From: an uncultured Alphaproteobacteria bacterium
Lineage (GTDB): Bacteria; Pseudomonadota; Alphaproteobacteria; Methylaequorales; Methylaequoraceae
NCBI GenBank assembly: GCA_902526175.1
Contig: CABZJY010000006.1
Location: 1 to 64,000 of the forward strand
Length of the DNA: 64,000 nucleotides
Reading direction: 5' to 3'
Shown here piece by piece: positions 5,002-57,658 of this stretch; position 1 is the stretch's first letter, and each line of letters begins with the position of its first letter. Below the pieces are notes generated by a model, which was given only the letters and a program-made list of their open reading frames with translations, was not told the origin of the DNA and did no database searches. The translations under genes were made by a program, and so were the position numbers.

Positions 5002-6014
5002 AAAAATATAACTTAGCAATTTTGGGTGCAACTGGAAACGTTGGAAGGGAAGTTCTCAATATTATTGATGAAAGAAACTTTCCTGTAAATGAAATATTTG
5101 CTTTGGCATCTAAAAATTCTGAAGGAAAAAAAATTACTTATGGAAATGACAAAACAATTACAGCTCAAAATTTGGAAAAATTTGACTTTAAAAATACAGA
5201 TATAGTTATTTCTTCACCAGGTTCAGAAATTTCTAAAGTTTATGTACCAAAAGCGACTAAGGCAGGCGCAGTTGTTATTGACAACACATCTTATTTTAGA
5301 ATGGAAAAAGATATTCCATTAATTGTCCCAGAAGTTAATTCAAAAGAAATTCCAAAATTTAAAAAAAAGAAAATTATTGCCAACCCAAACTGCTCTACAA
5401 TTCAACTTGTAACTGTTCTCAAACCAATTCATGATGCTTTTTCAATAAAACGAGTTGTAGTTTCAACATACCAATCTACATCAGGAGCTGGTAAAAAAGC
5501 AATGGACGAACTATTCAATCAAACTCTTGATGTTTACAAAAATAAGCATTTGAAAAGTAAAATATTTACAAAAAGAATAGCTTTTAATTTGATACCTCAT
5601 ATTGATAAATTTCTTGAAGACGGTTACACAAAAGAAGAAAAAAAAATGTCTGAGGAAACAAAAAAAATACTTGATTCAAAAATTAAATTGTCAGCTACTT
5701 GCGTTAGAGTTCCTGTTTTTATAGGACATGCAGAGTCAGTAAATATTGAAACAAAAAAACAAGTTACACCAGAAGAATTGAGAGAAGTTCTAAGTAATGC
5801 ACCTGGTGTGAGTGTAGTAGATTCTAGAATTGATGGAGGTTATGTAACGCCAGACGAAACCACAGGAGAAGATGAAGTTTTCGTAAGTAGAGTTAGAAGT
5901 GATAGTACAGTTAAATATGGTGTATCTCTATGGATTGCAGCCGATAACTTAAGAAAAGGTGCTGCATTAAATAGTGTTCAAATTGCTGAAGAATTAATTA
6001 AGTATCTCAAATGA
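4998..6014 (+). CDS. asd: Aspartate-semialdehyde dehydrogenase
   Basis: Asd reduces 4-aspartyl phosphate to aspartate semialdehyde, the branch point to lysine/diaminopimelate, threonine and methionine. The 338-residue protein has the NADP-binding GATGNVGREV at residues 10-19 and the catalytic cysteine C132 in NPNCSTIQL, followed by STYQSTSGAGKKAMDEL. Length and motifs match proteobacterial Asd. It is joined to leuB and to the next gene by 4-base overlaps, so it sits inside a tightly coupled operon. Confidence 0.96.
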   Translation: MKKYNLAILGATGNVGREVLNIIDERNFPVNEIFALASKNSEGKKITYGNDKTITAQNLEKFDFKNTDIVISSPGSEISKVYVPKATKAGAVVIDNTSYFRMEKDIPLIVPEVNSKEIPKFKKKKIIANPNCSTIQLVTVLKPIHDAFSIKRVVVSTYQSTSGAGKKAMDELFNQTLDVYKNKHLKSKIFTKRIAFNLIPHIDKFLEDGYTKEEKKMSEETKKILDSKIKLSATCVRVPVFIGHAESVNIETKKQVTPEELREVLSNAPGVSVVDSRIDGGYVTPDETTGEDEVFVSRVRSDSTVKYGVSLWIAADNLRKGAALNSVQIAEELIKYLK

Positions 6015-7051
6015 GTAAGAATTTTAGAAGTAGATTTTTCGAAGATTATGTACTTGGGGAAACTATTAGACACAGTGTTCCTAGAACAGTTACTTCTGGT
6101 GATGTTTCATTATATTTAGCTACAACCGGAAGTAGGTTTGCAATAAATTATTCACAAGAATTTTCAAGAGACTTAGGTTTTAAAGCAACTCTTGTTGATG
6201 ACATATTAGTCTTTCATTTAGTTTTTGGTAGAACGGTTCCAGACCTTTCACTAAATGCAATTGCAAATTTGGGTTATGCTGATGTGAGATTTCTTAATCC
6301 TGTGTATATTGGAGACACTATCAATTCAACTTCTAAAATTGTTGGTTTAAAAGAAAATTCTAATGGCAAAACTGGAACTGTTTATGTTCATTCTGAGGGC
6401 AGAAATCAAAAAGGGGAGTTAATATTATCTTATTACAGATGGTTAATGATGAGAAAAAAGAACCTTGACGAGCATTTAGATGATAAAACAATTCCAGAAA
6501 TGCCATCAAAAGTTGAAAAAAAAGACATGAAATTTTTTGAAAATATTAATTTAAAAAAATGGAATACCTCATTTACAGGAAGTGAAAATTTATTTGAAGA
6601 CTATGATGTTGGAGAAGAAATTGATCATCTAGACGGACAAACAATTGAAGAATCGGAGCATCAAATGGCAACAAGATTATATCAAAATAATGCAAGAGTT
6701 CACTTTAACCAACATGTAGAAAAAGATGGAAGATTTGGAAAAAGAATTATTTACGGGGGATATATAATTTCATTAGCTAGGGCAATTAGTTGTAATGGAT
6801 TAAGTAATACTATTAAATTAGCAGCAATTCACTCAGGAAAACATTCCTCTCCAACATTTAGTGGTGACACAATTTATGCCTGGTCAAAAATTCTTGAAAA
6901 AGAAAATTATAATAATGATGTTGGCATAATGCGTATAAGAACTTTAGCTTCTAAGAACTGCAACAAAATTACCTTTCCTGATGAAAAGTCATTAACAGAA
7001 AATATAGTTTTAGACTTGAACTATTCAGTTTTTATACCAAAAAGAATATGA
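6011..7051 (+). CDS. mch: Mesaconyl-CoA hydratase (MaoC family, ethylmalonyl-CoA pathway)
   Basis: Mesaconyl-C1-CoA hydratase converts mesaconyl-CoA to beta-methylmalyl-CoA in the ethylmalonyl-CoA pathway. The 346-residue length equals that of characterised Mch proteins and is about double a single MaoC domain. The N-terminus RFFEDYVLGETIRHSVPRTV and the segment YLATTGSRFAI are typical of this subfamily. The second hotdog half carries ARVHFNQHVEKD followed by IIYGGYIISLARA, the MaoC hydratase signature. A general MaoC hydratase is the alternative, but the presence of ccr, ecm and mcd in the window makes Mch the likely role. It overlaps asd and sdhC by 4 bases each. Confidence 0.88.
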   Translation: MSKNFRSRFFEDYVLGETIRHSVPRTVTSGDVSLYLATTGSRFAINYSQEFSRDLGFKATLVDDILVFHLVFGRTVPDLSLNAIANLGYADVRFLNPVYIGDTINSTSKIVGLKENSNGKTGTVYVHSEGRNQKGELILSYYRWLMMRKKNLDEHLDDKTIPEMPSKVEKKDMKFFENINLKKWNTSFTGSENLFEDYDVGEEIDHLDGQTIEESEHQMATRLYQNNARVHFNQHVEKDGRFGKRIIYGGYIISLARAISCNGLSNTIKLAAIHSGKHSSPTFSGDTIYAWSKILEKENYNNDVGIMRIRTLASKNCNKITFPDEKSLTENIVLDLNYSVFIPKRI

Positions 7052-7777: not shown

Positions 7778-9559
7778 ATGTCTTTAAAAACTGAAACTTT
7801 AGAGTTTGATGTAATTGTCATAGGTGCGGGGGGGTCTGGATTAAGATCAACCATGGGTTGTGCATCACAAAATTTAAAAACTGCTTGTTTAACAAAAGTA
7901 TTTCCCACAAGAAGTCATACAGTTGCCGCACAAGGTGGTATTAGTGCTGCTCTTGGAAATATGGGGGAAGACGACTGGAAATGGCACATGTATGACACGG
8001 TTAAAGGATCTGATTGGCTTGGTGATCAAGATGCCATTGCTTTTATGTGCAAAGAAGCCCCGGACGCCGTTATTGAACTAGAACATTATGGTGTTCCTTT
8101 TTCAAGAACTGAAGATGGAAAAATATACCAGAGACCATTTGGAGGTATGACAACTAACTTTGGAGAAGGCATTGCTCAAAGAACTTGTGCAGCCGCAGAT
8201 AGAACCGGGCACGCAATGCTACATGCACTATATCAACAATCGTTATCGTATAATGCAGAATTTTTTGTTGAATATTATGTTATTGACTTAATTATGGGCG
8301 AAAATAATGAATGTAAAGGGGTTCTTACTTGGAATCTTCACGATGGAAAACTTTACTGTTTTAATGCCAAAATGACTATACTTGCAACAGGAGGATATGG
8401 AAGAGCATATTTTTCATGTACTTCAGCGCATACCTGTACAGGTGATGGGGGAGCCATGGTTTTAAGAGCCGGTTTGCCATTACAAGATATGGAATTTACA
8501 CAGTTTCATCCTACTGGAATTTATGGTGCAGGGGTATTAATAACCGAAGGTGCTAGAGGAGAAGGTGGATTTTTAACAAATAATTTGGGTGAGAGATTCA
8601 TGGAGAAATACGCTCCTAATGCCAAAGACTTGGCGAGTAGAGATGTTGTTTCCAGGTCCATGACTACGGAAATACTTGAGGGAAGAGGATGCGGAGTAAA
8701 AAAAGACCATATACATCTTAATTTGAGTCATTTAGAAAATAAAATTCTAGAAGAAAAACTTCCTGGAATAACTGAATCTGCAAAAATATTTGCTGGAGTT
8801 GACGTTAGAAAAGAACCAATCCCCGTTCAACCAACTGTTCACTATAACATGGGGGGGATTCCGACTAATGTTTTTGGAGAAGTTATTACTAAAGATGCAA
8901 AAAAAGAAATTATCGTAGACGGATTGATGTCCATAGGAGAGGCCGCATGTGTTTCTGTGCATGGAGCAAATAGACTTGGTTCCAACTCATTACTTGATCT
9001 TGTAGTTTTCGGTAGATCGTCAGCCAAAAGATGTGGTGAGTTATTATCTAGTAATAAAAAAAATAAAACTATTGCAAAATATGAGCTAGATAAAATCATT
9101 GATGAATTTATGGAATTAAAAAACTCTAAAGGTGATTGTAATGTTGCTAAAATTAGAACTGAAATGCAACATACTATGCAAAAATACTGTGCAGTTTACA
9201 GACAAGAAGATTCTCTAAAAAAAGGAAAAAAAATTCTTCAGGAACTTTTCGAACAGACAAAATCTATTCGAATACACGACAATTCATTAGTTTGGAATAC
9301 TGAAGTTGTAGAGGCTTTAGAATTAAAAAATTTACTTTTACAATCAATTGCAAGTATGGAGTCTGCAATAATTAGGAAAGAGAGTAGAGGTGCCCATTCT
9401 CGATCAGACTACAAAAGCAGGAATGATAACGAGTGGTTAAAACATACACTAGTTTGGGTTAACAAAGACTCAAAAACTACTCATGAATTTAAAAAAGTAC
9501 AACTTAAAACTAATAATGATGAAGTGAAAACTATCGCTCCAAAGGCGAGAGTTTATTAA
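7778..9559 (+). CDS. sdhA: Succinate dehydrogenase flavoprotein subunit
   Basis: SdhA oxidises succinate to fumarate at a covalently bound FAD on the inner face of the cytoplasmic membrane. The 593-residue protein has the dinucleotide fold GAGGSGLRS (17-25), the FAD-linking histidine H47 in SHTVAAQGG, and the active-site region [13 protein letters not shown] followed by [28 protein letters not shown] is also typical. It sits 20 bases after sdhD and is separated from sdhB by a 127-base gap, unusual for this genome. Confidence 0.98.
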
Positions 9560-9576
9560 AAAAAAACAATTCACTA

Positions 9577-9616
9577 TTGATATGTTATATCAAATCAGTA
9601 TCTATATATATAGATA
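9577..9616. repeat. Two adjacent A+T-rich inverted repeats between sdhA and sdhB
   Basis: TTGATAT-GTT-ATATCAA (9577-9593) is a perfect 7-bp stem with a 3-base loop. Six bases later TATCTATATATATAGATA (9599-9616) is a perfect 18-base palindrome. Both lie just after sdhA in the 127-base sdhA-sdhB gap. No T-run follows and the stems contain almost no G or C, so they are unlikely to be strong terminators. They could be mRNA-processing or stability elements, or simple A+T-rich chance structure. Confidence 0.5.
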
Positions 9617-9686
9617 TTAATGTCAGAATCAGTTATAATTACTGTTTATGTACTTGTAAAAATTTTAATAAAACGTTTTAATTGTT

Positions 9687-10454
9687 ATGGTAGAATTAAC
9701 ACTTCCAAAGAACTCAATTGTTGAACAGGGTAAAACCTTCAGGGAAAAAGGTGATGAAAATAAACAAATTAAAATAGATGTATACAGGTGGAATCGAGAT
9801 TCAGGTAAAAACCCAAGTATAGATACTTTTTGGATAAATATTAAGAATTTAGGTCCAATGGTATTAGACGCTTTAAACTATATTAAAAATAATATTGATC
9901 CTACTATAACCTTTAGGAGATCATGTCGCGAAGGAATATGTGGCTCCTGTTCAATGAATGTAAATGGCGTAAATACCTTAGCCTGTCTCCAGCCAATAAA
10001 GGGTAAAGCTTTAAAAATTTTCCCCTTACCACATATGAGGGTTATTAAGGATTTAATTCCTGATCTCAGCGATTTCTATAAACAATACAAATCGATTAAA
10101 CCTTGGCTTAGACCTAAACAAAAAAATTCAAAGAAAGAAATTTTACAATCCCCAGAAGATAGGAAAAAACTAGATGGACTTTATGAATGCGTACTATGTG
10201 CATGTTGTTCAACTTCATGTCCAAGCTACTGGTGGAATAGTGAAAAATTTTTAGGTCCTGCTATCCTTCTTCAAGCATACCGATTTATTGTTGATAGTAG
10301 AGATAGAGACAAAAAAAAACGTTTAGAAATGCTTAATGATGCATTTAAACTCTATAGATGTCATACAATTATGAATTGCACTAAGACTTGCCCAAAAAAT
10401 CTTAATCCAGCCAAAGCAATTTCATCCATCAAGAAAATGCAAATTACAAACTGA
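9687..10454 (+). CDS. sdhB: Succinate dehydrogenase iron-sulfur subunit
   Basis: SdhB carries electrons from SdhA flavin to ubiquinone through three Fe-S clusters. The 255-residue protein shows the 2Fe-2S cysteines C80, C85, C88 and C100 ([10 protein letters not shown] plus LAC), then the 4Fe-4S/3Fe-4S set in [17 protein letters not shown] and [17 protein letters not shown]. Length and spacing are standard. It may be read from the sdhC promoter or from its own promoter in the unusual upstream gap. The stop is two bases before the zapE start. Confidence 0.97.
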
Positions 10455-13363: not shown

Positions 13364-14323
13364 TTGTCAAAAATTAGTTTGATCGGCGCTGGGAATATAG
13401 GAGGGGAGTTAGCTTCCTTGATAGCTTCAAAATCATTAGGAGATGTCGTTTTAGTTGATGTTGTTGATGGTCTGGCTAAAGGAAAGGCATTAGACCTCGG
13501 ACAGAGTGGTGCTGTGAGAAACTTTATTTATTCTATTTCTGGTGGAAGCTCCTTATCAAAAATTAAAAACAGTGATGTAATAGTAGTTACAGCTGGAATT
13601 TCTAGAAAACCAGGAATGAGCAGAGATGATTTAATTTCTACCAATCTTGAAATTATGAAAAATATCGGACAAGCTATTAAAATTTACAGTCCTAATTCGT
13701 TCATTGTTTGCGTTACAAACCCTCTCGATGCTATGGCATGGGTTCTAAAAAAAATCAGTGGAATAAAAAAAAATATGATTGTAGGTATGGCTGGAATACT
13801 TGATTCAGCAAGATTTAAATTTTTTTTATCAAAAGCTTTGAATGTATCTCAGGAAGATATTCAAACAATGGTCTTAGGAGGACATGGCGATACTATGGTA
13901 CCACTTTTGAATTATACAAAAATTAGTGGTATTCCTATTCTAGAATATTTAAAACAAAATAATGTTAAAAGAAAAATTGTTGATGACATAATTGAAAGAA
14001 CAAGAAATGGGGGAGGAGAAGTAGTATCATTGTTAAAAACTGGATCGGCATTCTATGCACCTGCTATAAGTGCATGTGAGATAGTTGAGTCTTTTTTGAG
14101 AAATAAGAAAAAATTAGTTCCTTGTTCAACGTATCTTACAGGAGAATATGGTGTTAAGAATCTTTTTGTAGGAGTTCCAGTTGTAATAGGTAATAAAGGA
14201 ATTGAGAAAGTTGTCAAAGTTGAGTTCAGTACCGAAGAAAAAAATCAATTTAAAAAATCAGTAAAATCAGTAGACATTTTAACAAATTTATGTCAAAAAC
14301 TGTTGATTAAAAGTAATTTTTAA
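13364..14323 (+). CDS. mdh: Malate dehydrogenase (lactate dehydrogenase-like type)
   Basis: Mdh interconverts malate and oxaloacetate with NAD+ in the TCA cycle. The 319-residue protein begins ISLIGAGNIGGELA, the NAD-binding fold, and shows TAGISRKPGMSRDDL, NPLDAMAW and the catalytic histidine in LGGHGDTMVPL. This is the LDH-like MDH found in alphaproteobacteria. The start is TTG at 13364, supported by a strong Shine-Dalgarno AAAGGGGAA at 13351-13359. The 54-base gap after nadC and the good ribosome site suggest a fresh transcription unit, mdh-sucC-sucD. Confidence 0.96.
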   Translation: MSKISLIGAGNIGGELASLIASKSLGDVVLVDVVDGLAKGKALDLGQSGAVRNFIYSISGGSSLSKIKNSDVIVVTAGISRKPGMSRDDLISTNLEIMKNIGQAIKIYSPNSFIVCVTNPLDAMAWVLKKISGIKKNMIVGMAGILDSARFKFFLSKALNVSQEDIQTMVLGGHGDTMVPLLNYTKISGIPILEYLKQNNVKRKIVDDIIERTRNGGGEVVSLLKTGSAFYAPAISACEIVESFLRNKKKLVPCSTYLTGEYGVKNLFVGVPVVIGNKGIEKVVKVEFSTEEKNQFKKSVKSVDILTNLCQKLLIKSNF

Positions 14324-14361: not shown

Positions 14362-15528
14362 ATGGACATTCATGAATATCAAGCAAAACAACTACTAGCA
14401 AAGTTTGGTGTTAATATCCCTGCAGGAGAAATAATATATCAACCACATGAGGCGGTAACCGTAACATCTTGGCTGAATGAAGAAGAAGTCATGGTTAAGG
14501 CCCAAGTTCATGCAGGCGGAAGAGGTAAATCTGGAGGGATAAAAAAGTGTACTGGTCAGGAGGAAGTTGTTGAAACTGTTGAAAAGATGATAGGCATGAA
14601 ATTAAAAACACCACAAACAGGTGATAAGCAAAAAACAGTAACAAGGGTATATATAGAGAAGGCCCATAACATTCAAACTGAACTATATTTTTGTGTATTG
14701 GTTGATAGAGAAACTGGAGGTAATACAATCATTACTTCTAAAAAAGGTGGTATGGATATTGAGAAGGTCGCAGAAAATGATCCTGATAGTATTTTTAAGG
14801 TAAAATTATCTCCAGGAAATAAATTATTAAATCACCATGCAAGAACAATATCCTATGAACTAGGTCTAAAAGGCGCAGTTGCTAAAAAAGCTCAAAAAAA
14901 TCTTATAGGTATATACAATGCATTTGAAAAATTAGATGCAGCCATGATTGAAATTAACCCTCTAGCAGTTACCAAAGAAGGTGAGGTTGTTGCACTTGAT
15001 TGCAAAGCCTCATTCGATGACAATGCTTTGTACCGCCAAAGACAAATTGCAGATATGAAGGATGAGAACGAATATGATCCACTTGAACTAGAAGCTGCTA
15101 GGCATGATCTCAACTATGTTAAGCTTGATGGAAACATAGGCTTAATGGTTAATGGTGCTGGTCTTTCTATGGCCACGATGGATATAATTAAGTTTTATGG
15201 GGGGGAAGCAGCAAATTTTATGGACGTTGCTGGTGCTGCAACACCTCAAAGAGTTGCAGCTGCATTTAAACTGATATATAGGGATAGCGACGTAAAAGGT
15301 ATATTAATAAATATATTTGGAGGTATGATGAGATGTAATGATATTGCTCAAGGTCTTGTTGATGCATCTAAAGAGGTAGGACTTGATAAGCCATTAGTTG
15401 TAAGACTTGAGGGTACAAATGTTGAAATGGGTATGGATATTTTGAAAAACTCTGGCTTTCCAATTACACCAGTTCCAACTATGGAACAAGCTGCTAAAGA
15501 AATTGTTGAACTAGTTAAGAAAAATTAA
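14362..15528 (+). CDS. sucC: Succinate-CoA ligase (ADP-forming) beta subunit
   Basis: SucC forms, with SucD, the succinyl-CoA synthetase that makes ATP or GTP from succinyl-CoA in the TCA cycle; it holds the ATP-grasp domain. The 388-residue protein starts [17 protein letters not shown], contains [14 protein letters not shown] near 47-60, and the metal-binding [10 protein letters not shown] and [10 protein letters not shown] segments. The stop TAA shares its last base with the sucD ATG. It also consumes the succinyl-CoA expected from the ethylmalonyl-CoA route. Confidence 0.98.
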
Positions 15529-16403
15529 TGGCCGTTTTAATTACTAAAGAGTCTAAAATTATATGTCAGGGTTTTACTGGTTCTCAAGGCACATTTCATT
15601 CAGAAAGAGCAATAGAATATAATACTAATATTGTCGGAGGGGTTACACCTGATAAAGGTGGGATGAAACATTTGAATATTCCTGTATTTAATACTGTCGC
15701 AGAGGCTAAGAAAAAAACTGGGTGTAATGCTTCAGGGGTTTTTGTGCCTCCCCCATTTGCTGCAGATGCTATTTTGGAGGGTGTGGAAGCAGAACTAGAT
15801 CTGATTGTTTGCATCACTGATGGGATACCAACAAGCGATATGCAAAGAGTTAGACGAGAGATGAAAGGATCAAAAACAAGGTTAGTCGGCCCAAATTGTC
15901 CTGGGGTACTAACTCCAGGAGTTGGAAAAATTGGAATTATTCCTGGACACATTTGTAAACCTGGGAGAATCGGAGTTGTATCAAGATCAGGAACACTCTC
16001 CTATGAAGCAGCCGTTCAAACCTCATCGTTAGGTCAATCTACAATTATTGGAATCGGAGGAGATCCTGTAAATGGTACAAATTTTGTTGATGCTTTAGAA
16101 CTATTTTTAAAAGACGATGAAACAGATGGTATAGTTTTGATTGGGGAAATAGGAGGAACACCGGAAGTAGAGGGTGCTGAATTTATAAAGTCGTGGAAAG
16201 GTCAGTTTAAAAAACCTGTAGCGGGTTTTGTTGCTGGTGCTGCTGCTCCAAAAGGAAGGAAACTTGGACATGCTGGGGCTATTGTAAATTCTGGAGCTGA
16301 AACAGCTGATGCAAAAAAAGAAGCACTTAAATCAGCAGGAGTTATAGTTGCTGATACTATAACGACAATTGGTGAGGCAATGATAAAAGCTATGGAGATT
16401 TAA
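15528..16403 (+). CDS. sucD: Succinate-CoA ligase alpha subunit
   Basis: SucD binds CoA and carries the phosphorylated active-site histidine. In this 291-residue protein the CoA-binding region is [14 protein letters not shown] (13-26), [13 protein letters not shown] follows near 119-131, and H248 in [11 protein letters not shown] is the phosphohistidine. The 1-base overlap with sucC implies coupled synthesis of the two subunits. The expected sucA/sucB do not follow; an ACT-domain gene starts directly after the stop. Confidence 0.98.
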
Positions 16404-35303: not shown

Positions 35304-36476
35304 ATGAGCAAAATTGTTATTACTTCTGCCAAGAGAACCCCAATAGGAAAATTTTTAGGGGGGTTATCTTCTCTTTCTGCTCCTGAACTTGGTAAATATG
35401 CTGTTAACGCTGTCATCGATGATTCAAAACTGGAAAAAAATGATATTGATGAGCTTATCTTAGGTCAAGTCCTCACCGGCGGTGCAGGGCAAAATCCAGC
35501 TAGGCAAACTTCTTGTAAAGCTGACATTCCTTTCTCAAAAAGCGCAGTAACAATTAACCAAGTGTGTGGATCTGGGTTAAGGGCAATTGCTATGGGTATG
35601 CAGTCATTGCAATATAATCAATCTGAAATAGTTATTGCAGGTGGTCAAGAGTCAATGAGTAATGCCCATCATACTATTAATATCAGATCGGCAACTAAAA
35701 TGGGTGATGGTAAATTAAAAGATTCTATGATTGTTGATGGGTTGTGGTGTGCAATGAATGGTTATCACATGGGAACTACTGCCGAAAATGTTGCTGAAAA
35801 GTACAATATTTCAAAAGATGATCAAGATAAATTTGCTACAGAATCTCAAAATAAAGCTGAGAATGCTCAAAAGTTGAATAAATTCTTGGATGAAATCGTT
35901 CCAATTTCAATTCAGAAAAAAAAAGAAGTGACTGTTATAAGTGAAGATGAATTTCCAAGACATGGCTCAACTTATGAAAAGATTTCTACTCTTAAACCTG
36001 TATTTTCAAAAGATGGTACTGTTTCAGCAGGAAATGCATCTGGGTTAAATGATGGTGCTGCAGCTGTTACAATGATGAATGAAGATTTAGCTGCAAAGAA
36101 ACAACTTGAGCCATTAGCTCGCATTGTATCTTGGTCGTCAGTTGGTGTTGACCCTTCTATAATGGGCATAGGACCAGTTGAAGCAACAAAAAAAGCTTTA
36201 AAAAAAGCTAAATGGAGTCTAGATGAATTAGACCTAATTGAAGCAAACGAAGCATTTGCAGCCCAGTCTCTTGCAGTTAGCAAAGAGATTGGATGGGATA
36301 TGTCAAAGGTTAATGTAAACGGTGGTGCCATAGCACTTGGGCATCCAATTGGAGCATCTGGTGCAAGAATTTTGGTAACACTTATACATGAACTAAAAAA
36401 AAGAAACTTAAACAAAGGATTAGCAACTCTTTGCATTGGAGGTGGACAAGGTATTGCTATGTGTATTGAAAGGTGA
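35304..36476 (+). CDS. phaA: Acetyl-CoA C-acetyltransferase (beta-ketothiolase)
   Basis: PhaA condenses two acetyl-CoA to acetoacetyl-CoA, the entry step to both polyhydroxybutyrate and the ethylmalonyl-CoA pathway. The 390-residue protein has the acyl-enzyme cysteine in NQVCGSGLRA (near 89), GGAIALGHPIGASGAR with the active histidine, and the second cysteine in ATLCIGGGQGIAM. SAKRTPIGKFLGGL at the N-terminus is typical of biosynthetic thiolases. It is followed 7 bases later by phaB. No phaC synthase is nearby. Confidence 0.95.
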   Translation: MSKIVITSAKRTPIGKFLGGLSSLSAPELGKYAVNAVIDDSKLEKNDIDELILGQVLTGGAGQNPARQTSCKADIPFSKSAVTINQVCGSGLRAIAMGMQSLQYNQSEIVIAGGQESMSNAHHTINIRSATKMGDGKLKDSMIVDGLWCAMNGYHMGTTAENVAEKYNISKDDQDKFATESQNKAENAQKLNKFLDEIVPISIQKKKEVTVISEDEFPRHGSTYEKISTLKPVFSKDGTVSAGNASGLNDGAAAVTMMNEDLAAKKQLEPLARIVSWSSVGVDPSIMGIGPVEATKKALKKAKWSLDELDLIEANEAFAAQSLAVSKEIGWDMSKVNVNGGAIALGHPIGASGARILVTLIHELKKRNLNKGLATLCIGGGQGIAMCIER

Positions 36477-36483
36477 ATAATAG

Positions 36484-37206
36484 ATGGACAAGATCGCTTT
36501 AGTAACAGGTGGCACTAGAGGTATTGGGGAAGCTATTTCCAAAAAAATTTCTTCAAGTGGTATTAAAGTTGTAGCTAATTATTCGAGCAATGATGAGGCG
36601 GCAAATAAATTTTCTGAAAAAAATGGTATTGATGCTGTTAAATTTGATGTTGGTGATTACGACCAGTGTTCAAAAGCAATAAAGGAAATTGAAGCTAAAC
36701 ATGGTAATATATCAATACTAATAAACAATGCTGGAATTACTAGAGACGCAGCATTACACAAAATGACGTTGCAGCAATGGAATGAAGTAATTAATACTAA
36801 TTTAAATTCTGCATTTAATCTTGTTTCTTCAGTAATTGGAAATATGAGAGATTCTGGTTTTGGGAGAATTGTTCATATCTCATCCGTTAATGGACAGAAA
36901 GGGCAGTTCGGACAAACTAATTATGCAGCAACAAAATCTGCATTGTTGGGTTTTTCAAAATCACTTGCTCTTGAAGTTGCTAGTAAAGGGATAACATCCA
37001 ATGTTGTTGCACCTGGTTATATTAATACTGAAATGGTAGCAGCGATAAGAGAAGATATTTTAAAATCAATAGTTGATACAATACCTTCAAAAAGATTAGG
37101 GGAGTCTGATGAAATTGCAGATCTTGTTAATTTTTTGATAACTGAGCAAGCAGCCTACATTAACGGTGCAACTTTCTCAATAAACGGTGGATTGAGAATG
37201 GACTAA
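36484..37206 (+). CDS. phaB: Acetoacetyl-CoA reductase
   Basis: PhaB reduces acetoacetyl-CoA to 3-hydroxybutyryl-CoA. The 240-residue short-chain dehydrogenase has the cofactor loop VTGGTRGIGEAI (7-18), NNAGITRDA, the catalytic serine in HISSVNGQKGQFGQTNYAATK with the YxxxK pair, and APGYINTEM. The sequence around NGQKGQFGQTNY is typical of PhaB rather than FabG. Pairing with phaA supports the call. It ends inside the convergent gloB stop by 4 bases. Confidence 0.9.
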   Translation: MDKIALVTGGTRGIGEAISKKISSSGIKVVANYSSNDEAANKFSEKNGIDAVKFDVGDYDQCSKAIKEIEAKHGNISILINNAGITRDAALHKMTLQQWNEVINTNLNSAFNLVSSVIGNMRDSGFGRIVHISSVNGQKGQFGQTNYAATKSALLGFSKSLALEVASKGITSNVVAPGYINTEMVAAIREDILKSIVDTIPSKRLGESDEIADLVNFLITEQAAYINGATFSINGGLRMD

Positions 37207-49624: not shown

Positions 49625-50122
49625 GTGTTTAAAATTTTGTTCATATTTACCATTTTTTTTTATCATGCTAGCGCTAATGATAAAAGTGAATTAATAATTC
49701 ATAAAGTTCCTAAAAATATAAAAATTAGCGATGTTTACGATTCTAAGGATAAAATTGTCAATATATTTGATAAAAAAAAGAAATTTACAATTATTAACTT
49801 TTGGGCTACCTGGTGTGCACCCTGCATTAAAGAAATTCCAGACTTACTGAACATTCAGAGTAAGCAAGAAGAAAAATTCAATGTTTTTTTTGTCTCCGTT
49901 GGTTTCTCATCTCCAGAAGATATAAAAAAATTTAAGGAGAAACACAAATTCGAAGAAATGAAAGTTTTGTATGACAAAAATCTAGAATTTAGTAAAGATC
50001 TAGAAGTTAGCACCATACCAACAACAATCATAATAGATAACAAACAAAAAGAAATAATAAAAGCAATTGGATATATTGATTGGAATGCCAAAAAAAAAGT
50101 AGAGCTTCTTGAGAATTTATAA
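49625..50122 (+). CDS. TlpA-like periplasmic thioredoxin
   Basis: The 165-residue protein has an N-terminal signal sequence (about 1-17, FKILFIFTIFFYHASA) and a thioredoxin fold with INFWATWCAPCIKEIP, active cysteines C64 and C67, and the cis-proline loop VSTIPTTIIID. TlpA-type proteins reduce periplasmic disulfides, often for cytochrome c or oxidase assembly. A TlpA gene divergent from argH is common in alphaproteobacteria. The start is GTG at 49625. It converges with etfA, overlapping by 6 bases. Confidence 0.88.
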   Translation: MFKILFIFTIFFYHASANDKSELIIHKVPKNIKISDVYDSKDKIVNIFDKKKKFTIINFWATWCAPCIKEIPDLLNIQSKQEEKFNVFFVSVGFSSPEDIKKFKEKHKFEEMKVLYDKNLEFSKDLEVSTIPTTIIIDNKQKEIIKAIGYIDWNAKKKVELLENL

Positions 50123-51052
50123 CTTTTGCTCAAGAGCAGGCAAGACTTCAAACAAGTCACCAACTAAACCATAGTCTGAAAACTTAAATATTGGCGCCTC
50201 TTCATCTTTGTTTATCGCAACAATGAACTTAGAGTCTTTAATCCCAGCAATATGCTGGATGGCTCCTGAAATCCCTACAGCAATATAGAGATCAGGAGCA
50301 ACAATTTTTCCTGTCTGTCCAACTTGCCAATCATTAGGAACAAATCCTGCGTCAACAGCCGCACGGCTTGCACCAATAGCAGCTCCTAATTTGTCGGCAA
50401 TGCCCTCTAATAATTTAAAATTATCTCCGTTTTGCATACCTCTACCACCAGAAATTACAATTTTTGCAGCGGTCAATTCAGGTCTATCTGACTCAGATAA
50501 TTCATGTTTTACAAAGTTAACTTTACCATCAAAGGTTAGTGACGAGTCAATTACTTCAACAGTATTTTTAGATTCTTTTTTACATGGCTCAAAACAAGTT
50601 CCTCTTACAGTAATAACTTTAATTTTATCCTTTGATTTTAGTTTACACACAGCGTTACCTGCATAAATTGGACGTTCAAATGTTTCATGATCTAAAACAG
50701 TCATAATATCAGAAATCTGTTGTACATCTAAATGAGCAGCTATCCTTGGTAATAAATTTTTTCCAAAAGTAGTTGATGGAGCAAGAATATGGGTATATTC
50801 ACCACTTTCTAAAAATCCTGTAAGTGCTTTTGTAATATCCTCAGCAATTTGGCTTTCAAAAATTTCATGTTTTATTAAGGTTACTTTTTTTAAACCTGAT
50901 ATCTTTTCAGAATCTGATACAATTTCTTGTGATCCAGTTGAAAAAATTAACATTTCAATATTGTCATCAATTTTTAATCCAGCACTGATTGTACTTAACG
51001 TCGAAGGTTTTATTTTCTTATTATCGTGTTCTGCAATAACTAATATTTTCAT
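50117..51052 (-). CDS. etfA: Electron transfer flavoprotein alpha subunit
   Basis: EtfA binds FAD and passes electrons from acyl-CoA dehydrogenases to the quinone pool through ETF:quinone oxidoreductase. The 311-residue protein begins [18 protein letters not shown] and carries the FAD domain with [44 protein letters not shown] and [12 protein letters not shown]. Its position at the end of the ccr-mcd operon makes methylsuccinyl-CoA dehydrogenase a likely electron donor. It overlaps etfB by 4 bases. Confidence 0.96.
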
Positions 51053-51801
51053 GATAATACCTTAGCTTCACTTTTTAATTTACCAATTAATTCTTCAACA
51101 TCCTGGACCATTATTCCAGGTTTTCTCTCTGGTGGATCATTCACTTCAATAATTTCTAACCTACTTTCTAAATTTAATCCAAAAGAACCTACATCAATTT
51201 GCTCAATTTTTTTTTGCTTGGCTTTCATAATGTTTGGTAATGAAGCGTATCTAGGTTCGTTTAGCCTTAAATCTGTAGTAATTATGCAAGGAAGTTCTAC
51301 GGATATAGTTTCTAATCCACCGTCAATTTCTCTGGTAACATCAAATTTCTCACCATTTTTCTCAACTTTTGAAGCAAAGGTAGCTTGGGATAAGTTACAT
51401 ATTTGCGCTAACATTTGTCCGGTTTGATTACTGTCATCATCAATTGCTTGCTTTCCCATTATTATTATTTCTGGCTTTTCCTTCTCTACAATTTTACTTA
51501 TTACTTTTGCAACATTAAGAGGTTCTAGGTCACTTGTAGTTTTAACTAGTATGCCTCTGTCTCCTCCCATTGCTAAACCTGATCTAATTGTTTCTTGAGA
51601 AGATTCACTTCCAATAGATAACACAACAATTTCATTTAATATCCCTTTTTCTTTCATCTTAACAGCTTCTTCTACAGCTATCTCATCAAACGGGTTCATT
51701 GACATCTTTACATTCTCAGTCTCTACACCAGTCTTATCTGCCTTAACTCTTATTTTTACGTTATAATCAATAACTCTTTTTACACAAACTAAAGCTTTCA
51801 T
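51049..51801 (-). CDS. etfB: Electron transfer flavoprotein beta subunit
   Basis: EtfB partners EtfA and holds the AMP site. The 250-residue protein starts [19 protein letters not shown], contains [36 protein letters not shown] and the family [21 protein letters not shown] segment recognised by acyl-CoA dehydrogenases. The order etfB-etfA with a 4-base overlap is standard. It starts 15 bases after the adenosyltransferase gene. Confidence 0.96.
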
Positions 51802-51816
51802 AATTACTCCATTAAA

Positions 51817-52371
51817 TTAAAATTTTTTTCCAGGCACCCACAAAATATCACCTTTTTTTCTATTTTCAAACCTTGCAGCCACAAATAGAAAATCAGATAA
51901 CCTGTTGAGATATTTAAATACCATATCATTTATGTGTTCTTTTTCAGATAGCGTTACAAGTTTTCTTTCAGCTCTTCTAACAATACATCGACAATGATGC
52001 AAAAATGCTGAAGATTTTTGTCCTCCCGGTAAAATAAATGAGTTCAGCGGTTTAAGTGATTCATTAATCTCATCAATTTTATTTTCTAATTCTTCAACAT
52101 GAATTTTGGAAACTTTTAAACTCTTCTTTTGATTTGAGTCCGGAAAACATAAATCAGCTCCCAGATCAAACAGGTGGTTTTGAATCTTTTGTAATACTTC
52201 TTTTATTTTTGGAGAACAATATATTATGGCTATTCCAATAGCAGAATTTGCTTCATCTACTTCGCCATAAACATCAACCCTAAGACTATTTTTTTTTACT
52301 CTTGTTCCATCACCTAAAGAAGTTTCACCCTTGTCTCCACCTCCAGTATAAATTTTGTCTAATCTTATCAA
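51817..52371 (-). CDS. pduO: Cob(I)alamin adenosyltransferase, PduO type
   Basis: This enzyme transfers the adenosyl group of ATP to cobalamin, making the coenzyme B12 needed by mutases such as Ecm. The 184-residue protein has the ATP-binding N-terminus KIYTGGGDKGETSLGDGTRV, then VDVYGEVDEANSAIG, and the C-terminal CRCIVRRAERKLV with NRLSDFLFVAAR, all PduO-type signatures. The location between mcd and etfB, next to ecm, suggests dedication to the ethylmalonyl-CoA pathway. Confidence 0.93.
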   Translation of the reverse strand: MIRLDKIYTGGGDKGETSLGDGTRVKKNSLRVDVYGEVDEANSAIGIAIIYCSPKIKEVLQKIQNHLFDLGADLCFPDSNQKKSLKVSKIHVEELENKIDEINESLKPLNSFILPGGQKSSAFLHHCRCIVRRAERKLVTLSEKEHINDMVFKYLNRLSDFLFVAARFENRKKGDILWVPGKKF

Positions 52372-52377
52372 ACGATT

Positions 52378-52584
52378 CTAACCAATGATTTGCTTTTTTG
52401 CATATATAGCTATAACTAATATAACGATCGCAAAAAATTGAAGAAAAACCCTGTATCTCATAAATTTGTTTATTTTATTAGAAGGATCATTCTTGGACTT
52501 TGCTGTATATAGCAGTCCAGCAATAAGGGAAAGAAATGTCAAAACTACCATTAACAGGATAATAAGATTTAAAAAAAAAATCAT
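52378..52584 (-). CDS. Small HIG1-like two-helix membrane protein
   Basis: The 68-residue protein has two hydrophobic helices (about 2-26 and 45-64) joined by a basic loop containing YTAKSKNDPSNKINKFMRYR, followed by VFLQ. The MRxRVxxQ-like sequence is the hallmark of the HIG1 (hypoxia-induced) domain, whose mitochondrial members associate with respiratory complexes; bacterial function is unclear. It starts at the last base of mcd and ends 6 bases before the adenosyltransferase, so it is made with the pathway. The match is based on a short motif. Confidence 0.72.
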   Translation of the reverse strand: MIFFLNLIILLMVVLTFLSLIAGLLYTAKSKNDPSNKINKFMRYRVFLQFFAIVILVIAIYAKKQIIG

Positions 52585-54266
52585 CAGTCTCTACCTAACA
52601 GACCTTTAGCTACTATTTGTGCTTGAATCTCAGCAGCCCCTTCGAAGATATTTAGAATTCTAGCGTCACATAACACCCTACTAATTGGATATTCCAAAGC
52701 GTACCCATTGCCTCCATGTATCTGTAGGCCACTATCCGCAACAGACCAAGCTACTCTAGCAGCAAGCAGCTTTGCCATACCAGCTTCAATATCACATCTT
52801 TCGTCATTATCCTTTTCTCTTGCCGAAAAAAGCGTGATCTGTCTTGCTATGGATGTTTCTATTACCATTAATGCAAGTTTCATGGCTATTCTTTGAAATT
52901 CAACGATTGGTTTACCAAACTGTGACCTATCTTTAGCGTATTGCAAACTAATATCTAATGCAGATTGTGCGACACCGACCGCCCTTGCAGCTGTTTGAAT
53001 CCTGGCTGATTCAAAAGTTTCCATTAACTGTTTAAAGCCCATTCCTTCCTTTTCGCCGAGCAGATTCTTTTTTGAAACTTTAATATTGTCTAGTGCTATT
53101 TCATATTCTTTCATACCCCTGTATCCTAAGACTTCAATTTCACTTCCACTCATTCCATCCATAGGAAAAGGATTTTCACAGTTTCCTCTTGGTTTTTCAA
53201 CCAAAAACATACTTAGTCCTTTGTAACCCTTTTCATCAGAGTTGGTTCTTGCAAGTACAGTCATTAAATCAGATCTAGCACCATGTGTTATCCATGTTTT
53301 GTTTCCATTAATAGTGTATTCTTCATCATTTAAAACTGCTCTTGTTGACAAACTTCCAAGATCAGACCCAGTATTTGGTTCAGTAAAAACAGCTGTTGTA
53401 AGCGTCTCTCCAGATGCAATTTTTGGCAAATACTTTTGTTTTTGTTCTTCGGTTCCGCCTAATCTTATCAATTCGCCTGCTATTTCAGCTCTTGTTCCTA
53501 GTGAGCCAGCTGCTAGAAACCCTCTGGAGAGTTCTTCAGTAACAACACACATCGCAACTTTTCCCATACCTAAACCACCATATTCTTCTGGAATAGCTAT
53601 ACTAAAGACTCCTAAATCAGACATTTTAGAGAGTATCTCATCAGGAATCAGTTTGTCTGCTAAATGCCACTCATTAGCTTCAGGTATAATTTCTTCATCA
53701 GTAAATTTTTTAAATTGATCTTGGATCATTTCCAATGTCTCATCACCCAAGCCTAGACTTGGAAAATTACCTTGACATAGATATTTGACAATTTCGTTCT
53801 TTACATCCTCTGACAGTCCATAGTTAATCACTTCACTAAAATTTTCTTCATTAAAAAAACTGAAATCTTCCGAGGTTAATCCCAAATCCTCAGGCCTAAT
53901 AATCTCTGATTGACTCATCATAATTCCATTTTTAATTTGCATGAGATATTCAGAGAAGCCACCGGCAAGTACTAAAGCATCTAGAGGAGAATTTTTATTA
54001 GTCGAGGATAGTCTTTTGTACCATTGCAACAATTCTCTTAAGCTTATTCTGTAGGTCTCAAACCAGGCATAACCGTGAGATTTGTATTGAACTTTCTCAA
54101 GTAAAGATGAACTAACTCTTCCATCCTTTACACAGCTAGATTTTAAAAAGCTACTAACTTTTTTGCTTAAAATCTCAAGTTTTTTAAGAATAAGGTCATA
54201 AGAATTGATCTTATCTTCAATCTCCGATTTTATTTCGGTTTTATCTATTAAATTTGAACTATCCAT
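52584..54266 (-). CDS. mcd: (2S)-methylsuccinyl-CoA dehydrogenase
   Basis: Mcd oxidises methylsuccinyl-CoA to mesaconyl-CoA with FAD. The 560-residue length is typical of Mcd and about 170 residues longer than ordinary acyl-CoA dehydrogenases; the extra N-terminal part includes VQYKSHGYAWFETYRISLREL. The dehydrogenase core shows IPEEYGGLGMGKVAM, VFTEPNTGSDLGSL, GNKTWITHGA and IFEGAAEIQAQIVAKGLLG. The start has a strong Shine-Dalgarno, TAAGGAGA (54273-54280). Position between ccr and the ETF genes supports the specific call. Confidence 0.9.
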   Translation of the reverse strand: MDSSNLIDKTEIKSEIEDKINSYDLILKKLEILSKKVSSFLKSSCVKDGRVSSSLLEKVQYKSHGYAWFETYRISLRELLQWYKRLSSTNKNSPLDALVLAGGFSEYLMQIKNGIMMSQSEIIRPEDLGLTSEDFSFFNEENFSEVINYGLSEDVKNEIVKYLCQGNFPSLGLGDETLEMIQDQFKKFTDEEIIPEANEWHLADKLIPDEILSKMSDLGVFSIAIPEEYGGLGMGKVAMCVVTEELSRGFLAAGSLGTRAEIAGELIRLGGTEEQKQKYLPKIASGETLTTAVFTEPNTGSDLGSLSTRAVLNDEEYTINGNKTWITHGARSDLMTVLARTNSDEKGYKGLSMFLVEKPRGNCENPFPMDGMSGSEIEVLGYRGMKEYEIALDNIKVSKKNLLGEKEGMGFKQLMETFESARIQTAARAVGVAQSALDISLQYAKDRSQFGKPIVEFQRIAMKLALMVIETSIARQITLFSAREKDNDERCDIEAGMAKLLAARVAWSVADSGLQIHGGNGYALEYPISRVLCDARILNIFEGAAEIQAQIVAKGLLGRD

Positions 54267-54328
54267 AAAAAATCTCCTTACTTATATTACTAACTAATAT
54301 ATTTTTATCAATCTTCAATCAAGAATGA

Positions 54329-55555
54329 TTATTTTAACTCCTTAAAACTCTTCATACCAGTTTTTTTTGCTTGAACTAGTGCAGCCATATTTCCGGGCAA
54401 ATGTTCATTATTCATCATTTTTGTATGTGCTGCTGGAATTTTTTCCCACAAAAAACATTCAGACATTAGTGGCTTTATAAGTTTATTTATCATCATATCA
54501 TTAGCTTGGTTAGCCTGATAGAGGTTTGCAAAGTGGCTACCTTGTATTCTTTTTTGTCGCATCCAAATATATCTCGCATCCATGGTCAAATTGTAGCCAG
54601 ATGTACCAGCGCATATTACAACCATACCACCAGTTTTAACTAAATAACATGATACTGGAAAAGTTGATTCGCCAGGATGTTCAAATACGATATCCACATC
54701 CTTTTTGCCAGTTATATTCCATATATCTTTCCCAAGAACTCTACATTTTTTAATAAAGTCTAAATACTCTTCCTGATTTTTGACATCTGGTAACTGACCA
54801 AAACAGTCATATTTTTTTCTATTCAGTACTCCAGAAGCCCCTAGTTTCTCAACAAAAGGGATTTTATCATCATCAGATATAATTCCAATCGCATTAGCTC
54901 CTACTGCTTTACAAATTTGTACAGCCATACTACCTATACCTCCTGAAGCTCCCCAAACTAGGACGTTCATTCCGGGTTTTAATGCATGAGGAGGATGTCC
55001 AAATAACATCCTAAATGCAGTTGCCAAAGTGAGTGTGTAGCAACCACTTTCTTCCCAAGATAGATGTTCAGGTTTCTTAAGTAATTGTCTTGACTGAACC
55101 GTTGTAAATTGAGCAAATGATCCATCATTAGTTTCATAACCCCAAATTCTTTGAGATTTGGAATACATAGGTTCTCCTCCATTACACTCTTCATCATCCC
55201 CATCATCACGATTACAATGAATTATAACTTCATCCCCAACTTTCCACCTTTTTACATTTTCACCTACAGCCCAAACTATACCTGAGGCATCTGATCCACC
55301 AATATGATATCCAGTATCCTCACCTATAACAGATATAGGTATTCCTTGAGATGCCCAAACATTGTTGTAATTTATTCCCACGGCCATTACCATTACCAAA
55401 ACCTCGTCCTGTTTAGGTTTTTGAACTGGCATTTTTTCAATCTGCATAGCTTTCTCTGGAACTCCGAGTCTATCCTCTCTTATTACCCAGGCATACATTT
55501 CCTCAGGCACCTCGCCTAAGGGTGGGATTTCTCCAATTTCATAAATTTTTTTCAT
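54329..55555 (-). CDS. ccr: Crotonyl-CoA carboxylase/reductase
   Basis: Ccr reductively carboxylates crotonyl-CoA with NADPH and CO2 to ethylmalonyl-CoA, the key step of the pathway. The 408-residue zinc-independent MDR enzyme begins IGEIPPLGEVPEEMYAWVIR, has INYNNVWASQGIP near 61-73, and the NADPH fold WGASGGIGSMAVQICKAVGA (201-220). GSHFANLYQANQAND near the end matches the CO2/substrate region of characterised Ccr. Polyketide-linked Ccr is the alternative, but its neighbours ecm and mcd favour acetyl-CoA assimilation. It heads the minus-strand operon. Confidence 0.95.
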   Translation of the reverse strand: MKKIYEIGEIPPLGEVPEEMYAWVIREDRLGVPEKAMQIEKMPVQKPKQDEVLVMVMAVGINYNNVWASQGIPISVIGEDTGYHIGGSDASGIVWAVGENVKRWKVGDEVIIHCNRDDGDDEECNGGEPMYSKSQRIWGYETNDGSFAQFTTVQSRQLLKKPEHLSWEESGCYTLTLATAFRMLFGHPPHALKPGMNVLVWGASGGIGSMAVQICKAVGANAIGIISDDDKIPFVEKLGASGVLNRKKYDCFGQLPDVKNQEEYLDFIKKCRVLGKDIWNITGKKDVDIVFEHPGESTFPVSCYLVKTGGMVVICAGTSGYNLTMDARYIWMRQKRIQGSHFANLYQANQANDMMINKLIKPLMSECFLWEKIPAAHTKMMNNEHLPGNMAALVQAKKTGMKSFKELK

Positions 55556-55571
55556 ATTTTTATTAAACTCT

Positions 55572-55589
55572 CTGTTAAAAATTTAACAG
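55572..55589. promoter_or_regulatory. 18-base inverted repeat in the ccr-ecm divergent promoter region
   Basis: CTGTTAAA-AA-TTTAACAG is a perfect pair of 8-base arms with a 2-base spacer, centred 25 bases before the ccr ATG and about 86 bases before the ecm ATG. The spacing and symmetry are those of a dimeric repressor or activator site. The 111-base gap must contain the promoters of both transcription units. A hairpin in the ccr leader is the alternative. No regulator gene is adjacent, so the binding protein is unknown. Confidence 0.5.
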
Positions 55590-55666
55590 ATTTGTAACAC
55601 AGATATTAAAAAAAAACATAAATTTCTTGTTGAAAGTCAAAATAAGTATTATTTTTTTATTCTGTT

Positions 55667-57658
55667 ATGAATGAATTACGTGATAAACCCTGGGTTATAA
55701 GAACTTATGCAGGTCATTCATCTGCTGAAGACTCAAATAAGCTTTATAGGAAAAATTTGTCTAAGGGCCAAACTGGCCTTTCAATTGCATTTGACCTCCC
55801 AACACAAACAGCTTACGATTCTGATGATGTGGTTGCAAAAGGTGAAGTGGGTAAAGTAGGTGTTCCCGTCAGCCATATAGGCAACATGATGACACTATTT
55901 AACAAAATTCCTTTAGAAAAAATGAATACTTCAATGACTATTAATGCGCCTGCTGCTTGGTTATTAGCACTTTACATAGCAACGGCTGAAAAACAGGGTT
56001 TGAAGCGTTCCACTTTGTCCGGAACCACCCAAAATGACATTACAAAAGAATATCTATCTAGAGGTACCTATATTTTTCCTCCAGAGGCTAGTTTGAAATT
56101 AACCTCTGATATTATAAAATTTACAACCTCTGAAGTTCCTAAGTGGAATCCTATGAATGTATGCTCCTACCATTTGCAAGAAGCAGGTGCTACCCCTGAG
56201 CAAGAATTATCATTTGCGCTAGCTACAGCTATAGGAATATTAGAATATGTGAAGAAAAATTCTAAGATGAATCACACAATGTTTGAAAAAATTGTTGGAA
56301 GAATTAGTTTTTTTGTTAATTCAGGTATGAAGTTTTTGACAGAAACATCAAAAATGATTGCTTTTACTGAAATGTGGCAAGATATATGTAAAACCCGATT
56401 TAAAATTGAAAATCCAAAATACAGAAGATTTAGGTATGGAATGCAAGTAAACTCGCTTGGTTTAACTGAACTCCAACCTGAGAACAATGTTTACAGGATT
56501 TTAATTCAAATGCTCCCAGTTGTAATTGCCAAAAATTCTCGAGCTAGGGCTGTACAACTTCCAGCGTGGAATGAAGCTCTAGGACTTCCAAGACCCTGGG
56601 ATCAACAATGGAGTTTAAGACTCCAGCAGATAATGGCTTATGAAACCGATTTATTGAATTTCGAAGATATATTTGATGGTTCTAAAGCTATTAGAAAAAA
56701 AGTACAGGATCTTAAAAAATCAGCAAAGAATGAATTAAAAACAATTGATAAACTTGGTGGATTAAAAGTTGCAATAGAAAATGGTTATATGAAAAAAAAG
56801 TTGGTTGAGTCACAAACAGATAGACAAAAAAATATTGAGAAGGGTGTACAAAAAGTTGTTGGTGTAAATTGTTACACTGAAGGAGAGGGATCTCCACTCC
56901 TTGATTCTAATGATGGTGGATTTATGAAAGTTGATAAAAAAGCAGAATTAAACCAAATCAAAAATGTAATTGAGTGGAAAGAAAAAAGAAATCCAGCAAA
57001 GATAAATAAACTCTTAAAAGTTTTAAAATCGAAAGCAGAATGTGGAGAAAATATTATGGAAACATCGATTGAATGTGCTCATGCTGGTGTAACAACAGGT
57101 GAGTGGGGTAAAGTAATGAGAGAGGTGTATGGTGAATATAGAGCTCCAACAGGGATTCTATCTTCATCATTAAATTTAAATAAAAGTGATACATCTCAGC
57201 TTGAAAAAATTAGAAAAAGGGTTAACGAAATTACAAAAAAAATTGGCATTAGACCAAAAATGCTTGTAGGTAAACCAGGATTGGATGGTCACTCTAATGG
57301 CGCAGAACAAATCGCAGTTAGAGCTCGTGATATAGGTCTTGAAGTTGTTTACGATGGAATAAGATCATCACCTGAACAACTTGCAAATACGTGTATAGAA
57401 GAGGGAGTTCATATTGTGGGTCTATCAATTTTGTCAGGATCACATCTTTTTTTGGTAAAAGAATTTCTTAAGCTATTAAAAACAGCAAATATCTCAAAAA
57501 TTCCTGTAGTCGTAGGAGGCATAATTCCTCCGACAGATGAAAAGAAACTGATTAAAATGGGAATATCAGCTGTATTCACTCCTAAAAATTTCCAAATTTT
57601 TGATATAATGTCTGAAATCGTTGAAATAATTGATAAAAAAACAAGAAAAAAAGATTAG
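55667..57658 (+). CDS. ecm: Ethylmalonyl-CoA mutase
   Basis: Ecm is the coenzyme B12-dependent enzyme that rearranges ethylmalonyl-CoA to methylsuccinyl-CoA. The 663-residue protein starts with WVIRTYAGHSSAEDSNKLYR and GQTGLSIAFDLPTQTAYDSD, typical of Ecm rather than methylmalonyl-CoA mutase. The cobalamin domain carries GKPGLDGHSNGAEQIA, with D540, H542 and G545 forming the DxHxxG motif. Single-subunit methylmalonyl-CoA mutases are usually longer (about 710-750). It is divergent from ccr. Confidence 0.93.
   Translation: MNELRDKPWVIRTYAGHSSAEDSNKLYRKNLSKGQTGLSIAFDLPTQTAYDSDDVVAKGEVGKVGVPVSHIGNMMTLFNKIPLEKMNTSMTINAPAAWLLALYIATAEKQGLKRSTLSGTTQNDITKEYLSRGTYIFPPEASLKLTSDIIKFTTSEVPKWNPMNVCSYHLQEAGATPEQELSFALATAIGILEYVKKNSKMNHTMFEKIVGRISFFVNSGMKFLTETSKMIAFTEMWQDICKTRFKIENPKYRRFRYGMQVNSLGLTELQPENNVYRILIQMLPVVIAKNSRARAVQLPAWNEALGLPRPWDQQWSLRLQQIMAYETDLLNFEDIFDGSKAIRKKVQDLKKSAKNELKTIDKLGGLKVAIENGYMKKKLVESQTDRQKNIEKGVQKVVGVNCYTEGEGSPLLDSNDGGFMKVDKKAELNQIKNVIEWKEKRNPAKINKLLKVLKSKAECGENIMETSIECAHAGVTTGEWGKVMREVYGEYRAPTGILSSSLNLNKSDTSQLEKIRKRVNEITKKIGIRPKMLVGKPGLDGHSNGAEQIAVRARDIGLEVVYDGIRSSPEQLANTCIEEGVHIVGLSILSGSHLFLVKEFLKLLKTANISKIPVVVGGIIPPTDEKKLIKMGISAVFTPKNFQIFDIMSEIVEIIDKKTRKKD

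Follow-up and report, generated by a model that had tools for sequence, protein, structure and literature searches.

A divergent cluster of seven genes in an uncultured alphaproteobacterium very probably forms the core of the ethylmalonyl-CoA pathway of a marine methylotroph of the TMED127/'Methylaequorales' lineage, in which it would feed glyoxylate to the serine cycle. The ethylmalonyl-CoA pathway is the textbook partner of the serine cycle in methylotrophs. Placing the cluster in abundant, uncultured ocean methanol oxidizers explains the presence of the pathway there. The pathway is already known for this order; the gene calls are right and the biology is largely ordinary, with one modest new point, a gap in the crotonase family and the probable replacement of CroR by a PhaJ-like hydratase. 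The identities of the enzymes come from sequence. Which way the flux runs, which proteins are partners in electron transfer and cofactor supply, and a role in the serine cycle are inferred from gene content together with a published reconstruction. The window is the whole 64,000-nucleotide stretch of DNA that was analyzed. The genome to which it belongs (G000) is represented by an assembly of 1.33 Mb in 31 contigs that is 83% complete, so that absences from it are weak evidence.

Structure of the cluster and identity of its enzymes

The first-pass annotation described a minus-strand run of ccr, mcd, a HIG1 gene, an adenosyltransferase gene, etfB and etfA, divergent from ecm, and all seven open reading frames were recovered as described (Table 1). 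Read from etfA towards ecm, the intergenic gaps measure -4, 15, 6, -1, 62 and 111 bases, and the first five of these bear out the description of the etfA-ccr run as nearly gapless but for a 62-base spacer between ccr and mcd. The cluster is not a chance arrangement, because the gene order from argH to nudix is kept in 8 of the 8 relatives' loci examined.

Table 1 Cluster genes and other pathway-related genes in the window
Feature	Position	Strand	Evidence
mch, mesaconyl-CoA hydratase	6011..7051	+	best solved matches 4e3e (404 bits) and 8hgn, beta-methylmalyl-CoA dehydratase (373 bits)
sdhA + sdhB, succinate dehydrogenase	7778..10454	+	read from ORF translations
mdh, malate dehydrogenase	13364..14323	+	TIGR01763 above cut-off
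sucCD-type CoA ligase	14362..16403	+	PRK00696, 512 bits
phaA-like acetyl-CoA acetyltransferase	35304..36476	+	TIGR01930 above cut-off
phaB, acetoacetyl-CoA reductase	36484..37206	+	TIGR01829, 332 bits (cut-off 302)
etfA, electron transfer flavoprotein alpha subunit	50117..51052	-	PF01012 and PF00766; order kept in relatives
etfB, electron transfer flavoprotein beta subunit	51049..51801	-	PF01012
PduO-type cob(I)alamin adenosyltransferase	51817..52371	-	TIGR00636; TTG start in ORF list
HIG1-domain / twin transmembrane helix small protein	52378..52584	-	PF04588 and NF033233
mcd, (2S)-methylsuccinyl-CoA dehydrogenase	52584..54266	-	6es9 match
ccr, crotonyl-CoA carboxylase/reductase	54329..55555	-	TIGR01751; 4gi2 match
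ecm (meaA), ethylmalonyl-CoA mutase	55667..57658	+	meaA identity; Ecm clade

Family, structure and tree matches agree with the original assignment of Ccr, Ecm and Mcd to the ethylmalonyl-CoA pathway, and by sequence the three are true members of their own families rather than generic paralogues. Ccr scored 551 bits on its equivalog model (cut-off 379), and 4gi2 is its best solved relative (621 bits). The best solved relative of Mcd is the authentic enzyme 6es9, matched at 631 bits over residues 27-557, a span that takes in the N-terminal extension; the next acyl-CoA dehydrogenase scored 277 bits and covered the catalytic part only, which places Mcd apart from ordinary acyl-CoA dehydrogenases. 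Ecm has no close relative among solved structures. Its identity is 59% to plasmid genes that carry the annotation 'protein meaA' and approximately 36% to the methylmalonyl-CoA mutase (Mcm) of its own genome. A 35-sequence tree splits Ecm and Mcm into separate groups with 100/100 support, so that Ecm does not group with Mcm, a placement that the first-pass annotation had held would count against it. Mcm holds its dicarboxylyl-CoA substrate by Tyr, Arg and His residues (1req numbering), and in the alignment these read as conserved in Ecm. PduO scored 194 bits against a TIGR00636 cut-off of 108, the HIG1 protein scored just above the cut-off of the NF033233 twin-helix model, and the ETF domains of both subunits are clear.

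The first-pass annotation had viewed the operon as a package of pathway enzymes with two support systems. The sample for comparison comprised 30 PduO loci of other alphaproteobacterial genomes, with 1.5 kb at each. An etfB gene lies beside PduO in 23 of these loci, a HIG1-like ORF lies upstream of PduO in 22 and an mcd-like gene lies upstream in 6. With such counts for etfB and HIG1, the HIG1-PduO-etfBA block is an old, class-wide gene order, and the idea of a specialized package was rejected. The arrangement is common to other lineages and is not special to Methylaequorales. In order and orientation the class block matches the window locus, which differs in joining mcd and ccr directly to the block. 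The window's etfB is approximately 56-67% identical to the PduO-adjoining etfB of other alphaproteobacterial families. The order ecm-ccr-mcd-PduO-etfBA recurs in G038 and, more loosely, in G026 and G031. A putative pairing of Mcd with the cluster's own ETF is plausible; a literature search for the combination of ETF, adenosyltransferase and ethylmalonyl-CoA genes returned no match.

A probable serine-cycle role in a marine methylotroph

The organism is a member of a small-genome, open-ocean methylotroph lineage, as its early description as a streamlined, probably marine alphaproteobacterium had anticipated. The closest named records to its Ecm are AG-900-F16 (98% identity), AH-716-M15 (80%) and MED657 (78%), and MED657 is listed as TMED127 in the portions of Glass et al. 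2025 drawn on here (PMC12542740). An xoxF gene (C5:64871, 674 bits) occurs in G000, with neighbors whose translations read as pqqB, pqqC, pqqE, xoxG/xoxJ-like, lut-like, ABC transporter, H4MPT-pathway and hopanoid genes. This island matches the TMED127/Methylaequorales island as given in those portions, which report H4MPT, pqq, lut and hopanoid genes in an xoxF5 island, a lack of 2-oxoglutarate dehydrogenase, and a prediction of the serine cycle together with the ethylmalonyl-CoA pathway. They also state that the order has the serine-cycle genes for serine-glyoxylate aminotransferase, hydroxypyruvate reductase and malate thiokinase. The lineage, island and predicted pathways are thus the same as here; absent from the passages in question are the gene cluster and its conserved synteny, the lack of crotonase genes and the patchy distribution of B12 synthesis. 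The first-pass annotation had found the pathway notable because such lineages are usually thought to rely on the glyoxylate shunt; that surprise is not supported, as this lineage has been reported to consist of serine-cycle methylotrophs (PMC12542740, same portions).

Most of the remaining pathway was located in G000. Among the genes that the first-pass annotation had proposed looking for, an epimerase gene lies at G000:C2:139243, pccB on contig C4 is adjoined by a biotin-carboxylase-like ORF (pccAB), and mcm on contig C5 has meaB beside it. Malyl-CoA lyase (mcl) was not found in the 83% complete assembly. Nine relatives carry mcl 11.3 kb downstream of mcm, adjoining accA; these genes are 91-95% identical among five of the relatives, and their best match is 5ugr (487 bits). 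Contig C5 of G000 extends for 3 kb beyond the mcm PF01642 match and ends there. Because the contig ends before the syntenic position seen in the nine relatives, mcl, along with accA, probably falls in an assembly gap, and the absence was not read as a true loss of mcl. Joint absence of Mcl and PccAB from the complete genome had been put forward as evidence against the pathway; PccAB is present, and the missing mcl is probably a matter of a contig edge.

In our preferred reconstruction, acetyl-CoA released by malyl-CoA cleavage would be condensed by PhaA and reduced by PhaB, and the 3-hydroxybutyryl-CoA formed would be converted to crotonyl-CoA, probably via a PhaJ-like hydratase. Ccr would then carboxylate and reduce crotonyl-CoA, the B12 enzyme Ecm would rearrange the product, and Mcd would oxidize the result with electrons leaving via ETF, while PduO would provide adenosylcobalamin for both Ecm and Mcm. 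The product of Mcd would be hydrated by Mch and split by Mcl into glyoxylate, which would go back into the serine cycle, and propionyl-CoA, which would be returned via PccAB, epimerase, Mcm, SucCD, Sdh and Mdh, with Sdh turning the resulting succinate into fumarate.

Regeneration of glyoxylate for the serine cycle is most likely because G000 carries xoxF, pqq, lut-like and H4MPT genes, and because no 2-oxoglutarate dehydrogenase E1 was found above cut-off in the 16 family genomes searched. The same evidence tells against growth on acetyl-CoA-forming substrates, as proposed in the first-pass annotation. It is improbable that the cluster is instead an acetyl-CoA assimilation route by which a heterotroph lacking the glyoxylate shunt could use acetate-like substrates for growth. 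In Methylobacterium extorquens, the same set of enzymes operates on both acetate and methanol (PMC2948502), and isocitrate lyase had no match in G000 (83% complete) or in the family, except for one weak partial match in G011, in keeping with the proposed lack of a shunt. Against this route stand the xoxF methylotrophy island and the absence from G000 of both 2-oxoglutarate dehydrogenase E1 and crotonase, which suggests that acetyl-CoA oxidation and beta-oxidation are both impaired; the consulted portions of PMC12542740, moreover, infer obligate methylotrophy for TMED127 bacteria. We consider it highly improbable that the pathway is something other than a closed cycle, with a PHB-linked overflow or a supply of propionyl-CoA or C4/C5 dicarboxyl-CoA precursors as its main function. 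The adjacency of phaA and phaB in the window and the missing mcl of the G000 assembly would fit such a reading, but most family members retain the genes that a complete cycle requires: mcl, mch, pccB, epi and mcm.

Our preferred reading, glyoxylate supply to the serine cycle, has a close counterpart in Methylorubrum (Methylobacterium) extorquens AM1, which likewise has Ccr, Ecm, Mcd, Mch, Mcl, Epi, PccAB and Mcm and no isocitrate lyase; a divergent ccr/ecm pair is found on Methylobacterium plasmids too. In contrast to AM1, the present genome is small and AT-rich, ccr-mcd is joined to HIG1-PduO-etfBA, and a crotonase-family CroR is lacking, with a PhaJ-like hydratase found in relatives instead.

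Several minor observations concern the propionyl-CoA branch. The sucCD-type ligase would free succinate from succinyl-CoA, with malate activation as an alternative; its identification as malate thiokinase found no support, as the malate-CoA ligase model PRK14046 gave 487 bits, below the cut-off of 604. Its retention after mdh despite the missing 2-oxoglutarate dehydrogenase fits a supply of succinyl-CoA from methylmalonyl-CoA mutase alone. MeaB is a GTPase that guards methylmalonyl-CoA mutase. The MeaB encoded directly downstream of mcm (G000:C5, L041 17106-18299) bears an N-terminal helix-turn-helix (HTH_3, 35 bits), and the MeaB of a second genus (L044 3642-4835) has a weaker HTH_3 in the same place.

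The crotonase gap and a PhaJ-like hydratase

CroR, a crotonase, is the enzyme assigned to dehydration of 3-hydroxybutyryl-CoA in M. extorquens (PMC2948502). No member of the crotonase family (PF00378) was found in G000 or in the other family genomes (16 searched) except G005; larger alphaproteobacteria have up to 36 PF00378 matches. G005 belongs to the same family, has crotonase genes and no xoxF was seen in it, and it was left out of the argument. With the family missing from every other genome searched, a contig-end artifact was rejected as the explanation for the absence of CroR.

Ten family genomes encode a PhaJ-like MaoC protein of approximately 150 residues (L110 15582-16034 and the related L098-L103 are among the loci). 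The one protein tested has the motif GDNNPIH, and its best match is the (R)-specific enoyl-CoA hydratase 5cpg. In G007 the gene lies 12 kb from mch, beyond rimM-rpsP-ffh-dapF. Contig C6 of G000 starts within this mch-to-PhaJ stretch, 6 kb from mch, and G000 would therefore lack the gene by assembly. For Rhodospirillum rubrum, a conversion of crotonyl-CoA to (R)-3-hydroxybutyryl-CoA by PhaJ has been proposed (PMC7238569), and a PhaJ-like hydratase fits the (R)-product of PhaB. On balance we favor a crotonase-free pathway in Methylaequorales, in which an (R)-specific, MaoC-type (PhaJ-like) hydratase would replace CroR in dehydrating the (R)-3-hydroxybutyryl-CoA made by PhaB. If true, the pathway can operate without a beta-oxidation-type hydratase, by a simple enzyme swap that is open to testing.

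Cobalamin supply

Most family genomes, G000 included, have at most two corrin-ring-type methylases (PF00590), which supports a dependence of G000 on external cobalamin. Seven were found in G012 and eight in G009, and both of these genomes have long runs of ORFs that read as cob genes (named from the starts of their translations) and seem to make B12. The vitamin requirement that had been proposed from the B12 dependence of the pathway is thus likely for G000 and does not hold family-wide, although the family genomes other than G009 and G012 seem to rely on an outside source of B12. The assimilation of methanol could accordingly be limited by B12 supply in the majority of these bacteria, but not in every one. 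Near mcm-meaB in L044 (5177-7826) are CobS-/CobT-like cobaltochelatase subunits, with the CobS model below cut-off, in a genome that has almost no corrin methylases. Cobalamin-synthesis-like clusters were seen at L114 (G009:C2) and L117 (G012:C20), in only 2 of the 16 family genomes searched.
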